Source: Lachnospiraceae bacterium | Lineage (GTDB): Bacteria; Bacillota; Clostridia; Lachnospirales; Lachnospiraceae | DNA length: 41,229 nucleotides | NCBI GenBank assembly: GCA_017470935.1 | Contig: JAFUXG010000040.1 | Coordinates: 1-41,229, forward strand | Direction of reading: 5' to 3' | Shown here: positions 1 through 41,229 of the stretch, in pieces | How the letters are laid out: each line of letters starts with the position of its first letter | Numbering within the stretch: the first letter of the stretch is position 1 | Made by a program: the position numbers and the translations under genes | Notes under the pieces: model-generated | Told to the model about the DNA's origin: nothing | The model's database searches: none | What the model saw: the letters and a program-made list of their open reading frames with translations, nothing else

Positions 1-250
1 AGGTCAGATGGCATTTGGAAAGGGGTTAGAACTTCTTGGTGTCCCACAAGAAGCCTAGTGGATGCGAGGCATGGAGGCCTCGCAGGTGCGCCGGAGCCAT
101 GGATGGCGACTAAGCACCTTGCCACGGACGGTATCATACTATATTCGGGGCACCTAGAAGTTCTTATCCCGTCCAACACGCCATCTGACCTGAGGGTATC
201 TGTGCAAGTCAGACGGCGTACGGTTTCAAAACTTAACTAAACAGTAATTT
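1..250 (-). repeat. Structured repeat, left copy (inverted with respect to the right end)
   Basis: The reverse complement of about positions 110-250 matches the last 140 bases of the window with roughly 11 differences, so this is one of at least two copies in opposite orientation. The copy also folds on itself: positions 1-12 pair perfectly with 180-191. The stem continues imperfectly (TTGGA, AGAACTTCT and GGTGTCCC against their partners between 147 and 179) for about 44 pairs in all, with G-U type differences. The apical part holds smaller hairpins (GCGAGGC/GCCTCGC, and AGGTGC-GCC/GGC-GCACCT). The inner boundary lies just before the ribosome binding site of the next gene. Position 1 is the contig edge, so the other boundary is not seen. 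It could be a structured RNA gene or a palindromic mobile element; I do not recognise the family. Confidence 0.8.
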
Positions 251-262
251 AGGAGAAAAATA

Positions 263-694
263 ATGAAGGATCATATTAATAGCAAACTATTTAAATACCT
301 ATTTTTATTTATAACTGGCGGCTTCACCTATTTCTACATGGAGATCATATTCAGAGGCTTTTCCCATTACTCAATGATAATATGCGGAGGTCTTGCCTTT
401 GTGCTTTGTGGTGTTCTTAACCAGGCAACCCATTTCAGGCTGTCTGTTATAAGCCAGATGCTAATATCTACAGTTATTATCACTTCACTAGAGCTTATTA
501 CCGGATATATTGTTAATATTAGATTACACTTAAATGTATGGGACTATTCAAGACTGCCATATAACTTTCACGGCCAGATATGTGCTGCATATTCTTTTAT
601 ATGGATGCTGCTGTCATTGCTATGTATCGTGATAGATGATCTCATTAGGTGGAAGATATTCGATGAAGAGAGACCCAGTTATAGGATACTCTAA
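263..694 (+). CDS. Small integral membrane protein, putative ABC-transporter type IV (PF06541) family
   Basis: A 143-aa protein with four hydrophobic segments. The N-terminal pattern GGFTYFYMEIIFRG...SHYSM followed by a Gly-Gly-Leu membrane segment, and the later NVWDYS...FHGQICAAYS, are typical of the PF06541 (COG4905) family. These proteins are called putative ABC-transporter permeases without good functional proof. The start has AGGAG eight bases upstream, and that ribosome site touches the inner end of the structured repeat. The gene is alone and converges on groEL. Membrane location is secure from composition; the transport role is only the family label. Confidence 0.7.
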   Translation: MKDHINSKLFKYLFLFITGGFTYFYMEIIFRGFSHYSMIICGGLAFVLCGVLNQATHFRLSVISQMLISTVIITSLELITGYIVNIRLHLNVWDYSRLPYNFHGQICAAYSFIWMLLSLLCIVIDDLIRWKIFDEERPSYRIL

Positions 695-21872: not shown

Positions 21873-24710
21873 TTATTTCTTTATTTTCATTGTTTTCTTG
21901 TATCCTGTCTTACCGGTAAACAGCTTTTTATATGTCTTTAACTGTTTCTTAGGAACTTTGATGGTTGCCTTCTTATTGATACCCTTAATGGCATTTTTAC
22001 CTACGGTCTTCAATGAAGATGTCTTAATGGTGATCGTCTTCAAATTCTTACAATTTGCAAAAGCATTTTTCCCTATAGATGTAATATTGCTGCTTACTGT
22101 TACTTTTTTAATCTTTTTGTTACCCTTAAAAGCATTATCTGCAACACTTGATACTTTGTATTCTATTCCATCAATCTTAACAGTAGCAGGAATAGTAACA
22201 GATGTTGCTTTCTTATTAGTTGTCCCTGTGTATGAAACAGTTGGATTTGATGAATCAGCAGATGTCACCTTAAATGTTGCTTTATTGCTTGGCTCTGTTA
22301 ACACTGTCCCCTTGCTTGCCGGTTGAGGAGTAGTAGGAGTAGTCTGTGTTGTTGTATCTTTGTTTTCATTGTTATTTGCTGATGTATCTTGGTTATTATT
22401 TGTATTATTGCTATTCTGATTAGTGTTTTGATTTGTGTTTTCATTGTTATTATTGTTTTGTGTTCCACCTATTCGATTAACAGTATAACCATTTTCAGTA
22501 GCCCATTTATCTGCATAGGAATCGGCTGACACAGTTATTACCATTGTAGATGGGCAATCTTTAAAAACATAATTACCAATACTTGTTACACTATCTGGAA
22601 TAGTAATAGTAGTTAATTTACTACAACCTTCAAATGCATAATTACCAATACTTGTTACACTATTTGGAATTTCAATATTTGTTAATTTACTACAACCTTC
22701 AAATGCATCTTCATCTATAATTGTAACATTTTTAGAAATAGTAAGACTTGTTAATCCACTACAATTTTTGAACACACTATCCCTAATCCTTGTTACACCT
22801 TCAGGAATCAAGATACTTGTTAATCCACTACAATCTTCAAAGGCAAAATCCCCTATATTTGTAACAGTTTTGGGAATTGTAATGTTTGTTAAACTGCTAC
22901 ACCCATAAAATGCGCTGCTTCCTATACTTGTAACACCTTCCGGAATAGTGATACTTGTTAAACTACTACAATATCCATAAACCTCATAACTTATACTTGT
23001 TAACCCTTCTGGAATATTAACACTTGTTAAGCCACTACACTCGTAAAACGCGCCATTGCCAATACTTGTTACACTTTCAGGAATAGTAATACTTGTTATA
23101 CTACTACAATTCATAAATGCTTCACTACCAATACTTGTTACACCTTCAGGAATAGTAATACTTGTTATACCACTACAACCATAAAATGCTATATTGCCAA
23201 TACTTGTTACACCTTCAGAAATAGAAACACTTGTTAAACCAGTACATTCATTAAATACACCTTGCCCTATCCTTGTTATATTTGATGGAATTGTGATACT
23301 TGTTAAACCACTACAACCATTAAATGCAAAATCACCTATCTCTGTTACACTTTCAGGAATTATTACTCCCGTTAAGCCACTACAACCATTAAACGCTTTA
23401 TTCCCTATACTTTTTACATTATTAGGAATTACTGTTTTGTTACATCCGTATAACAATGTATCTGTTTCAGTTTCTATTATGGCATTACAATCATCTTTAC
23501 TATTATACTTCAAATTTCCAGCTTCAACAGTTATACTCGTTAAACTGCTACATCCATAAAATACATCTTTATCGATGCTTGTTACACTTTCAGGAATAGT
23601 AATACTTTTCAAGCTACTACACTCATAAAATGCACCATAACCTATGCTTGTTATCCCTTCTGCAAAAACCAAATTTGTCAACTTGCTACAACCATTAAAT
23701 GCATGTGCAGCTATACTTGTTAAACTTTTAGGAATAATGATACCTGTTAACTCCTTACATCCATAAAATGTACCATTGCCTATACTTTTTATTCCTTCCG
23801 GAATCGTGATATTTGTCAACCCACTACATCCATTAAATGCACTACTTCCTATGCTTTTTATGTTTTCTGAAAGCGTAATGCTTGTCAATCCGCTACATCT
23901 ACTAAATGCATTACTTCCTATATCTGTTACACTATTAGGAATTATAAGACCTGTTAATCCATTACATCCACTAAATGTATTATCTTCTATAATTGTAATA
24001 TTGGAGGGAATATTTAGATTTGTCAAACTACTACAATTATAAAATGCTTCTTTTCCTATATTTGTTACACTATCAGGAATTGTGATATTTGTTAACCCAG
24101 TACATCCACTAAATGCACTATTTCCTATATCTGTTACACCATTAGAAATTGTAATATCTGTTAATCCAGTACATCCACTAAATGCACTATTTCCTATATT
24201 TTTTACACTATTAGGAATTGTGATATTTGTTAACCCAGTACATCCACTAAATGCACTATTTCCTATATCTGTTACACCATTAGGAATTGTAATATCTGTT
24301 AATTTACTACATCCAAAAAATGTATTATCTTCTATAATTGTAATATTGGAGGGAATATTTAGATTTGTTAAACTACTACAATTATAAAACGCCTCTTTTC
24401 CTATATTTATCACACTATCAGGAATATTGATACTCGTCATTTTACCAGTATATTTGAATACCCCTGCACCTATGCTTGTTACAGGCTTACCATCTATAGT
24501 TGCTGGAATTGTAACACTTTCCGGAGCAACACCTATATATCCAATAATCTCTACTTCATTATCATTATTAATTAGTTTATGGCTCAAGCCGAAATAATCT
24601 TCATTAACTACACCAGCATCAGCATTACCCACTATACTCAATACACCAATAACACAAAGTATTATCATTGCATAGACTTTTTCACATATTCTTATTATTT
24701 TTCCTTGCAT
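21873..24710 (-). CDS. BspA-like leucine-rich-repeat surface protein
   Basis: A 945-aa exported protein with a signal peptide in about the first 32 residues. Roughly 28 tandem 23-residue TpLRR/LRR_5 units follow (consensus like SITIPESVTSIGNGAFYGC). Then comes an Asn/Gln/Thr-rich linker near 745-805, a small beta region, and three more repeats ending in a very Lys-rich tail. BspA-type proteins are surface adhesins or host-interaction proteins; no sortase motif is present, so anchoring may rest on the basic tail. A GGAG site supports the start. A five-repeat block has been duplicated within the gene. It is the main cargo of the tRNA-Thr island and has its own promoter flanked by repeated boxes. 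Confidence 0.92.
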   Translation of the reverse strand: MQGKIIRICEKVYAMIILCVIGVLSIVGNADAGVVNEDYFGLSHKLINNDNEVEIIGYIGVAPESVTIPATIDGKPVTSIGAGVFKYTGKMTSINIPDSVINIGKEAFYNCSSLTNLNIPSNITIIEDNTFFGCSKLTDITIPNGVTDIGNSAFSGCTGLTNITIPNSVKNIGNSAFSGCTGLTDITISNGVTDIGNSAFSGCTGLTNITIPDSVTNIGKEAFYNCSSLTNLNIPSNITIIEDNTFSGCNGLTGLIIPNSVTDIGSNAFSRCSGLTSITLSENIKSIGSSAFNGCSGLTNITIPEGIKSIGNGTFYGCKELTGIIIPKSLTSIAAHAFNGCSKLTNLVFAEGITSIGYGAFYECSSLKSITIPESVTSIDKDVFYGCSSLTSITVEAGNLKYNSKDDCNAIIETETDTLLYGCNKTVIPNNVKSIGNKAFNGCSGLTGVIIPESVTEIGDFAFNGCSGLTSITIPSNITRIGQGVFNECTGLTSVSISEGVTSIGNIAFYGCSGITSITIPEGVTSIGSEAFMNCSSITSITIPESVTSIGNGAFYECSGLTSVNIPEGLTSISYEVYGYCSSLTSITIPEGVTSIGSSAFYGCSSLTNITIPKTVTNIGDFAFEDCSGLTSILIPEGVTRIRDSVFKNCSGLTSLTISKNVTIIDEDAFEGCSKLTNIEIPNSVTSIGNYAFEGCSKLTTITIPDSVTSIGNYVFKDCPSTMVITVSADSYADKWATENGYTVNRIGGTQNNNNNENTNQNTNQNSNNTNNNQDTSANNNENKDTTTQTTPTTPQPASKGTVLTEPSNKATFKVTSADSSNPTVSYTGTTNKKATSVTIPATVKIDGIEYKVSSVADNAFKGNKKIKKVTVSSNITSIGKNAFANCKNLKTITIKTSSLKTVGKNAIKGINKKATIKVPKKQLKTYKKLFTGKTGYKKTMKIKK

Positions 24711-39165: not shown

Positions 39166-41091
39166 ATGAACAAAAAATTAAATATATTTGTTATCCCGGC
39201 TCTTGCCGCCGTTATAATTCTTTCATGCATTCTATTATTGCCCACCGAAGATACAGACCGAAACCATTATAGGAGCAGGCTGTTAAATGAGCTTCAAAAT
39301 GACAATGATTTTTCTGATTTCCAGACCAGTCTCTTCAAATATGAGATAACCTCTAATTCCGTAACAACCGCTTATACACTTCATTCACCAGAAAAATATA
39401 AGATTCCAAGGCTTGCACCTATTCTAACAGATTTTTCTAACAATAGCTATTACAAAGACTTCCAAAAGGGAATATCAAAGAAAAACATTTCTGAAATATC
39501 TGACAAGCTTTCATCCTTCGATACTGATAAGCTTAGCACTAATGATAACATCACCTATGATCTTCTTAACAAGCATCTAAAGCTTAGCGCCGCCTTCTGC
39601 GATTATCCTTACTACGAAACCCTTCTTGGCAAAACCACAGGAGCAGCCTCCTCTCTTCCCGTAACACTCTCCGAATATCCTCTTAATTCCCAGGCTGATA
39701 TTGAAGAATACCTGTCCTTGTTAAAGCAGATACCCTCATATTTTGACAGTGTTATGGAATATGAAAATGAACGTATCAAGCGGGGCATGCCAACTCCGGG
39801 TTTCATTTTAGAAGAAACAAAAAATGAGCTTTCAGAGTTTCTCAAAAGCCTAGACAATGATAACAACTGCTTTGTGTCTACATTTAATGACAGAACAAAA
39901 AACATCAAAACACTTGCCCAGAAGGACAGAAGCAAATATATATCAACAAACAAGTATTATGTTAACCAATATATTATTCCTGCTTATGAGAAGCTTTCCA
40001 GATATATCACTGCGAAGGCAAATTTGACCAAGGACAATAATCATGAAAAGAACACAAGCAAGCATAGATCAAATAATTCAAATATTGCAGACAGGCATGG
40101 CAATTCAGAAAATACAGATAATCACAGCATTCAAATAAATGATAAAATACCTTATGGATTATCCGCATATCCCGGCGGTGACAAATATTACGAGCTTCTT
40201 GTAAAGGATGTGACAGGCTCATACCGTCCTGTCCCTGAGCTGATTGAAATGACTGAAGCTTCTCTTGATAAGGCTTTATCCGATGTACTCTATATCGCCA
40301 CCACCGATACTGATGCATACATGTATTATTGCGACCATCCGGTAGAAACCGGCTTCCATTCCACCGAAGGCATTCTGGAAGCATTATCATTGCTGATACG
40401 TGATGACTATCCTCTTCTTGAAACTACTCCTAAGTACAATATTAAAACCGTACCCAAGTCAATTGCAGAAATGGTCAGTCCTGCATACTATATGATTCCT
40501 GCAATCGATGACTATGATAACAACACCATTTACATTAATCCTCTATATACAAGCGAGGAAAATGGCAACCTGTTCACCACCCTTGCCCACGAGGGCTTTC
40601 CCGGGCATCTGTATCAGACCGTATACTTTAACAATACGGATCCTAACCCCGTAAGACAGATTCTTGACTATCCCGGATATGTGGAGGGCTGGGCAACCTA
40701 TGTGGAGCTTAATTCCTTCTCGTATATTGACTATCCTGAATATTCCGAAAGTCTTCCTACCCTGTACCGTGCAGACACCATTATTAATCTAGCCCTATCT
40801 TCCAGAATCGATATGGGCGTCAATTATGAAAACTGGACGCTTGATGACACCAGAAAGTTTTTTGAGGATTTAGGCTTTAACAGCTATTACGCATACGATA
40901 TATATTCTTATGTGGTTGAAGCTCCCGGCAATTATCTTAGTTATTTCATCGGATATCTTGAGATAGATAATCTGAGACAGGAATATAAGAATCTGAAGAT
41001 GGAAAACTATACGGACAAAGAATTTCACAAAGTGCTTCTGGATATAGGTCCCGGAGACTTCGAAACCATACGCAAGTACATACTGCGGTAA
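39166..41091 (+). CDS. Secreted DUF885-family metallopeptidase
   Basis: A 641-aa protein with an N-terminal hydrophobic export segment (about 5-28, with a loose lipobox ILSC). It is followed by the DUF885 fold, related to M32-type zinc peptidases. The active site is HEGFPGH at 475-481 with the downstream VEGWATYVE at about 506-514 supplying further ligands. A low-complexity Asn/His/Ser segment near 290-325 breaks the family pattern. No strong ribosome site is seen, so the exact start is uncertain. The stop codon touches the inner end of the right-hand structured repeat, so the gene has no separate terminator. Confidence 0.9.
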   Translation: MNKKLNIFVIPALAAVIILSCILLLPTEDTDRNHYRSRLLNELQNDNDFSDFQTSLFKYEITSNSVTTAYTLHSPEKYKIPRLAPILTDFSNNSYYKDFQKGISKKNISEISDKLSSFDTDKLSTNDNITYDLLNKHLKLSAAFCDYPYYETLLGKTTGAASSLPVTLSEYPLNSQADIEEYLSLLKQIPSYFDSVMEYENERIKRGMPTPGFILEETKNELSEFLKSLDNDNNCFVSTFNDRTKNIKTLAQKDRSKYISTNKYYVNQYIIPAYEKLSRYITAKANLTKDNNHEKNTSKHRSNNSNIADRHGNSENTDNHSIQINDKIPYGLSAYPGGDKYYELLVKDVTGSYRPVPELIEMTEASLDKALSDVLYIATTDTDAYMYYCDHPVETGFHSTEGILEALSLLIRDDYPLLETTPKYNIKTVPKSIAEMVSPAYYMIPAIDDYDNNTIYINPLYTSEENGNLFTTLAHEGFPGHLYQTVYFNNTDPNPVRQILDYPGYVEGWATYVELNSFSYIDYPEYSESLPTLYRADTIINLALSSRIDMGVNYENWTLDDTRKFFEDLGFNSYYAYDIYSYVVEAPGNYLSYFIGYLEIDNLRQEYKNLKMENYTDKEFHKVLLDIGPGDFETIRKYILR

Positions 41092-41229
41092 ATTACTGTT
41101 TAGTTAAATTTTGAAACCGTACGCCGTCTGCCTTGCACAGATACCCTCAGGTCAGATGGCGGATTGGACGGGATAAGAACTTCTAGATGTCCCGGATAGA
41201 CTTTGGTACCGTCCGTGGCAAGGTGCTTA
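41090..41229 (+). repeat. Structured repeat, right copy (truncated by the contig end)
   Basis: Same element as at positions 1-250 but on the opposite strand, about 92% identical over 140 bases, with most differences in the apical half. It begins with TAAATTACTG, the TAA being the stop of the preceding gene, so the element boundary is at that codon. Only the proximal arm of the hairpin is present. Confidence 0.8.

Follow-up and report, generated by a model that had tools for sequence, protein, structure and literature searches.

The two ends of the window (the whole stretch of DNA analysed, 41,229 nucleotides) appear, from their sequence, to be halves of a non-autonomous, MITE-like and apparently mobile element of Lachnospiraceae, which carries two copies of the TwoAYGGAY RNA (Rfam RF01731). 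The identity of the RNA and the mobile architecture of the repeat are well supported, and what is new is the carrier, a small, apparently mobile repeat with back-to-back TwoAYGGAY copies. The best explanation, which we hold with about even confidence, is that this mobile element spreads a CsrA-binding RNA through operons.

By cmscan, positions 14 to 178 (plus strand) of the window match RF01731 along the entire model (1-168 of 168) and well above the gathering score (69.1 bits, cut-off 43, E 1.1e-9), which rules out a new RNA family for the repeat and corrects an earlier sequence-only reading that had been unable to match it to a known RNA family. The same reading had proposed a long stem with a branched head, and this fold was borne out: positions 1-45 (5′ arm) and 147-191 (3′ arm) form 39 pairs in the MFE structure, whose head is likewise branched. 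Of the G-U compatible changes that had been seen between the arms, two such pairs exist; the other 37 pairs are Watson-Crick. The head contains hairpin 1 (64-83), in which a CsrA-like GGA loop, AUGGAG (71-76), is closed by C70-G77, and hairpin 2 (96-107, GCCAUGGAUGGC), which is of the CANGGANG type with the loop AUGGAU. Both hairpins, identified from sequence and MFE structure, are of AYGGAY type, the last base of AUGGAG departing from the consensus. The fold of this end has an energy of -103.1 kcal/mol (mean of 200 dinucleotide shuffles -61.8, z -9.7, 0/200 as low), and the opposite strand is also stable (-93.0 kcal/mol, z -7.6).

The left end of the window (1-248, plus strand) is the right half, on the side of module A, of a paired-TwoAYGGAY element that the contig end truncates, with the same layout as the complete elements described below. 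The element's own end is a terminal inverted repeat found by end-motif search at 235-248 (ATTACTGTTTAGTT on the minus strand), which thus lies within positions 1-250, and the start codon of the following gene (263-694, plus strand; Pfam ABC_trans_CmpB, PF06541) stands 14 nt past it. At the other end of the window the TAA stop codon of a DUF885 gene (39166-41091, plus strand; Pfam) directly adjoins a second, inverted copy (41092-41229, plus strand), whose presence the earlier reading had noticed; this copy is 92% identical over 138 bases to the reverse complement of 111-248, begins with the terminal inverted repeat ATTACTGTTTAGTT (41092-41105, plus strand; end-motif search), and comprises the left part of an element, with module A in antisense, up to the break at the contig end. 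It was not matched by RF01731, even at E values up to 1. A link to IscB/TnpB and omega-RNA, which had also been entertained, was not borne out: the window has no IS200/605-type, IscB or omega-RNA Rfam match at the gathering threshold, none of the Pfam matches among 10 window ORFs (one was without match) is TnpB or IscB, and the two complete elements whose ORFs were listed contain, within the element, no ORF of more than 92 aa. Among the other genes of the window, 21873-24710 encodes a 945-aa protein with BspA-type leucine-rich repeats.

The genome to which the window belongs (G000; 75 contigs, the window being contig 46; 3.06 Mb, 77.75% complete) has 19 matches to RF01731, 18 of them over the cut-off and many at contig ends, and blastn with a 676-base element query gave 113 matches, which include many overlapping or self-inverted ones. 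The repeat is thus multicopy and often found at contig ends, as the sequence-only reading had held, and of the two alternatives that reading had left, a structured RNA or a palindromic mobile unit, both seem to apply. Full-length, complete loci number two (C2:14933-15590 and C18:41600-42257), of about 660 bp each. They have the ends ATTRCTGTTTAR..., with terminal inverted repeats ATTACTGTTTAGT... or variants of one to two bases, and consist of two head-to-head TwoAYGGAY modules, A and B, with their 5′ ends inward and an AT-rich centre between them; A and B have different outer stems. The longest ORF in the complete element L021 is 92 aa, and in L193 a 103-aa ORF runs past the element, according to the listing of ORF lengths. 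Sixty unique element ends were found in this genome (25 A-type, 32 B-type and 3 C-type halves, after exclusion of 14 further end-motif matches of no fitting type), and the A and B counts therefore suggest roughly 25-32 elements in the assembly.

The element has several features of a MITE: inverted ends, short length, dispersal, and empty sites in relatives. Four sites occupied in one species are empty in others, and in nine comparisons with the joined flanks as query the element lay between the aligned flanks in none (0/9). The unaligned gap was at most 19 nt in 7/9 comparisons (in two of these 7 the flank alignments overlap), and 49 nt and 129 nt in the other two; where it was 129 nt, the left flank aligned weakly. 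In G002 too, an element follows the DUF885 gene found at the right end of the window, and in G006 and G015 none does. Other insertions are common to species, namely that at the window's left end (with G006, whose element sits between relatives of the C65 end of G000 and of the window's left end) and that at the C5/C53 junction of G000 (with G002); several insertions are therefore old. End motifs number 78 in G002 and 80 in G010, where the reversed pattern gave 13 and 11. Among the matches listed for G000 and G002, whose assemblies break at repeats, no two ends face each other at 1-3 kb, a distance with room for a transposase gene. At what is apparently an orthologous site, L158 (G010) and L204 (G002) have flanks 83-85% identical and an RNA module between them that cannot be aligned, as if copies within a genome had been homogenised with each other.

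The element shares with Correia/NEMIS and other bacterial MITEs that it is short, geneless, inverted at its ends, multicopy, gene-adjacent and foldable in mRNA. It differs from them in that a defined structured RNA is present twice, that it lies directly against stop codons, and that no target duplication was demonstrated. Correia elements duplicate TA; here, TA stands one base before ATTRCTG in 36/65 flanks in G000 (background 7.7%), in part as TAA stop codons, and on both sides in 6 of the 28 elements that we could delimit in three genomes, no more than independence predicts. By analogy with other MITEs, a TA-targeting IS630-like enzyme might be the transposase. A phage or plasmid origin was rejected: blastn matched none of 50,697 phage records and none of 72,556 plasmid records, and viral contigs gave no pattern match. 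The exact element pattern had no match in a wider collection of genome contigs. A looser pattern gave 22 stretches, and cmscan on 16 of them found RF01731 over the cut-off in 10; stretches from Methylobacter, Methylococcaceae, two archaea, Bacillota UBA11021 and Litoreibacter, where RF01731 was absent over the cut-off, were taken as chance matches.

The structure of the RNA was analysed in 74 modules, taken among the matches listed: 17 of the 19 from G000 (two partial ones were dropped), 27 from the genus and 30 from the family. Two GGA-loop hairpins are present in 64/74 modules, including the window copy, one in 8 and none in 2, when hexa- and pentaloops are allowed, and the distance from GGA to GGA is 27-31 nt in 61 of the 64. 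A scan for tetraloops alone found two hairpins in 34/74 modules with GGA and in at most one module with each of the other 63 trinucleotides. Since hairpins were selected for pairing that flanks GGA, this trinucleotide and Watson-Crick closure of the loop are given by construction; closure is by C-G in 63/64 (hairpin 1) and 62/64 (hairpin 2), and the loop is a hexaloop ANGGAN in 58/64 and 41/64, respectively. Over eight stem positions, 463/512 cells are Watson-Crick in hairpin 1 and 336/512 in hairpin 2. The earlier reading took the structure to be selected and looked to covariation between copies as its test; far from being absent, covariation was strong across modules. Double-changed Watson-Crick cells numbered 165 and 95 in hairpins 1 and 2, against means of 43 and 31 in shuffles, which retain relatedness, and 103 and 56 against 24 and 15 when one module per genome was used (n=34); in both cases 0/2000 shuffles reached either value.

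These loops are plausible binding sites for CsrA. Rfam places TwoAYGGAY in clan CL00106, which we take to be the CsrA clan. The module loops mostly have the CANGGANG form, the form that CsrA binds, with GGA in a hairpin loop. According to the accessible text of a SELEX study, the CsrA consensus is RUACARGGAUGU, with loops mostly of six bases, and a CsrA dimer can bridge sites 10-63 nt apart (PMC7652899), a range within which the GGA spacing of the modules falls. The same text reports that very stable structure seemed unfavourable in the ligands selected (PMC7652899), and the stems of the modules are longer than in most of them. Binding of TwoAYGGAY by CsrA had already been proposed in a motif study, as far as its accessible part goes (PMC4333381). 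The host genome has a csrA gene (C25), with L4 and R44.

Among 348 genomes of the family, TwoAYGGAY was found in at least 54 (52 over the cut-off; a lower bound, few candidates having been scored per genome) and csrA in 184 (182 over the cut-off). csrA is present in 52/54 genomes with TwoAYGGAY and 132/294 others (p 5.5e-14, with genomes counted as independent and kinship ignored). The association with flagellin is as strong (53/54 versus 132/294), and within flagellin-positive genomes csrA adds nothing (52/53 with TwoAYGGAY versus 128/132 others, p = 1); motility or clade may therefore underlie the link. The idea that genomes with TwoAYGGAY have more csrA copies was rejected (11/52 versus 14/132, p 0.09). 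The two TwoAYGGAY genomes of the family without csrA are G193, which has flagellin, and G343, which has neither. Within the genus (26 genomes) there is no association, csrA being present in 7/11 genomes with TwoAYGGAY versus 13/15 others, where 12 are over the cut-off. Three TwoAYGGAY genomes, G005, G008 and G015, have flagellin without csrA, which may lie in assembly gaps. G004 (91% complete, 7 TwoAYGGAY copies) has neither csrA nor flagellin over the cut-offs; unless its flagellar contigs are missing, it runs counter to the csrA link.

Insertions lie at characteristic distances from genes. Of the 60 ends in G000, 34 face the 3′ end of a gene, 20 the 5′ end (an assignment that required an RBS-like string upstream of the start codon) and 6 are unclear; in a cruder count the figures were 32, 30 and 1 of 63. 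At 27/34 gene 3′ ends, 0-5 nt separate the stop codon from the element (among the seven more distant calls, some depend on short ORFs and could be incorrect), and at 19/20 gene 5′ ends the distance to the start codon is 14-33 nt. The 28 delimited elements are located between tandem genes in 12 cases, convergent genes in 6 and divergent genes in 1, with 9 unclear. Elements with a single module between tandem genes carry it in sense in 3 cases and antisense in 3. Cruder ORF calling across the family, which is distorted by ORFs within the elements themselves and by the picking of one module per pair, found the RNA sense in 6 and antisense in 17 tandem cases, which does not favour a sense rule. 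The flanking ORFs reach the element and vary (Hsp90, TyrRS, RecN/SMC, acetate kinase, glutamine synthetase, DapB and others); in a scan of 30 of 48 ORFs plus two window genes, no functional theme was apparent by eye.

From this we propose how the element would act. Its terminal inverted repeats (ATTRCTGTTTAR...) enclose two divergently oriented TwoAYGGAY RNAs, each predicted to be a long stem topped by two hairpins with mostly CANGGANG loops. Since the element typically lies between a stop codon and the RBS of the next gene, it is probably co-transcribed with the operon, and since the modules are inverted, one of them would be sense whichever way a full element lands. A CsrA dimer would bridge both loops of the module; an insertion would thus give the mRNA a new CsrA site, and all copies together would compete for CsrA. 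Only tentatively do we suggest the more specific possibility that the element is a transposable CsrA operator, whose strand-independent pair of docking RNAs, placed between stop codon and RBS, would connect unrelated core operons to the CsrA/FliW motility circuit and, taken together, titrate CsrA.

The sponge RNAs CsrB/C and RsmX/Y/Z likewise have GGA in hairpin loops and sites spaced for one CsrA dimer. In contrast to these, which come from a dedicated sRNA gene, the element has two sites per module, is dispersed over tens of gene junctions and has no promoter seen: promoter- and terminator-like sites in three elements were within about one s.d. of shuffles. The Coxiella elements QMITE1/2 are also MITEs and give rise to small RNAs, as far as the accessible text goes (PMC5896051); the likeness is one of description, and the main text of that paper does not contain the word CsrA. 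The window copy agrees with TwoAYGGAY in its full-length match, its two GGA hairpins on a stem and its occurrence in Clostridia. In the accessible portions of the published accounts, a 2010 table lists TwoAYGGAY as probably RNA and probably not cis-regulatory (PMC2864571), a 2014 study terms it a family of unknown function (PMC4333381), and neither mentions the inverted pairs in a multicopy mobile element seen here. A literature search covering few subscription papers and preprints found no later function for TwoAYGGAY and, by titles and starts of abstracts, no paper on a CsrA-linked MITE or repeat element or on a Lachnospiraceae MITE of this kind. Residence in a mobile element would explain why TwoAYGGAY lacks one fixed gene context, and the CsrA suggestion of 2014, as worded in the accessible text (PMC4333381), becomes concretely testable through the form of the loops, a spacing that suits a dimer and the joint occurrence with csrA. 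If true, it would mean that sites for a global RNA-binding regulator are spread by a transposable element.

Alternatively, the element might be a plain MITE-type parasite, whose RNA serves the element itself, by shielding it or through recognition of the folded strand in movement, and whose GGA loops bind another protein or none. We regard this as doubtful, while noting how much it would accommodate: the terminal repeats, dispersal and empty sites, the lack of orientation bias in the six single-module elements, the varied core genes as neighbours, a csrA link inseparable from flagellin, and G004 with its 7 copies. It is harder to reconcile with loops and C-G closing pairs held, in the form bound by CsrA, while the stems covary, and with covariation that persists at one module per genome in 34 genomes.

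A role in intercistronic processing, in which RNase III would cut the long stems, or the stems would block exonucleases, and so shift the ratio of upstream to downstream expression, is unlikely to be the main explanation: it leaves the conserved GGA loops unaccounted for. It would fit the position between stop codon and RBS, the very stable folds and the complementary stem of 72 nt (83%) in each of the two complete elements, and cleavage by RNase III of Correia-containing mRNA is described in the accessible text of PMC10969869. Processing and the spreading of a CsrA-binding RNA are compatible and could both apply.

That the unit acts as folded single-stranded DNA or a cruciform (REP/IS200-605-like or attC-like), with the RNA irrelevant, is very improbable: G-U pairs are nearly absent from hairpin 1 (3 G-U and 2 A-C of 512 cells) and are outnumbered by A-C in hairpin 2 (25 to 7), which speaks for it, but in 60/74 modules the strand with GGA has a better fold than the opposite one (means -69.1 versus -65.2), the hairpins contain tandem A.G/G.A pairs that would be C.T on the other strand, and the element has terminal inverted repeats and, in the window, no IS605-type RNA match. 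The tandem pairs, at pairs 4-5, occur in 15/64 and 31/64 hairpins (3/34 and 12/34 with one module per genome), and together with the better fold they point to RNA of the GGA strand.

Several loci depart from the common layout. Of the 28 delimited elements, 26 are 300-831 bp long and two, of 53 and 42 bp, are minimal derivatives with little but both terminal repeats (L111, G000:C54:93269-93321; L112, G000:C17:59624-59665). Some elements with the same ends gave no RF01731 match by cmscan at E up to 0.1 (L281, G002:C17, 831 bp; L282; L287-L290). The end motif ATTRCTGTTTAGT also occurs alone, without an element, at L125, L113, L126 and L128 (G000:C71, C71, C14 and C60), in the same orientation and immediately before an RBS-like string with a start codon; these copies are either relics or a separate regulatory motif. 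At L209 (G191:C36:54401-54869), TwoAYGGAY modules are arranged in direct tandem, not head to head.
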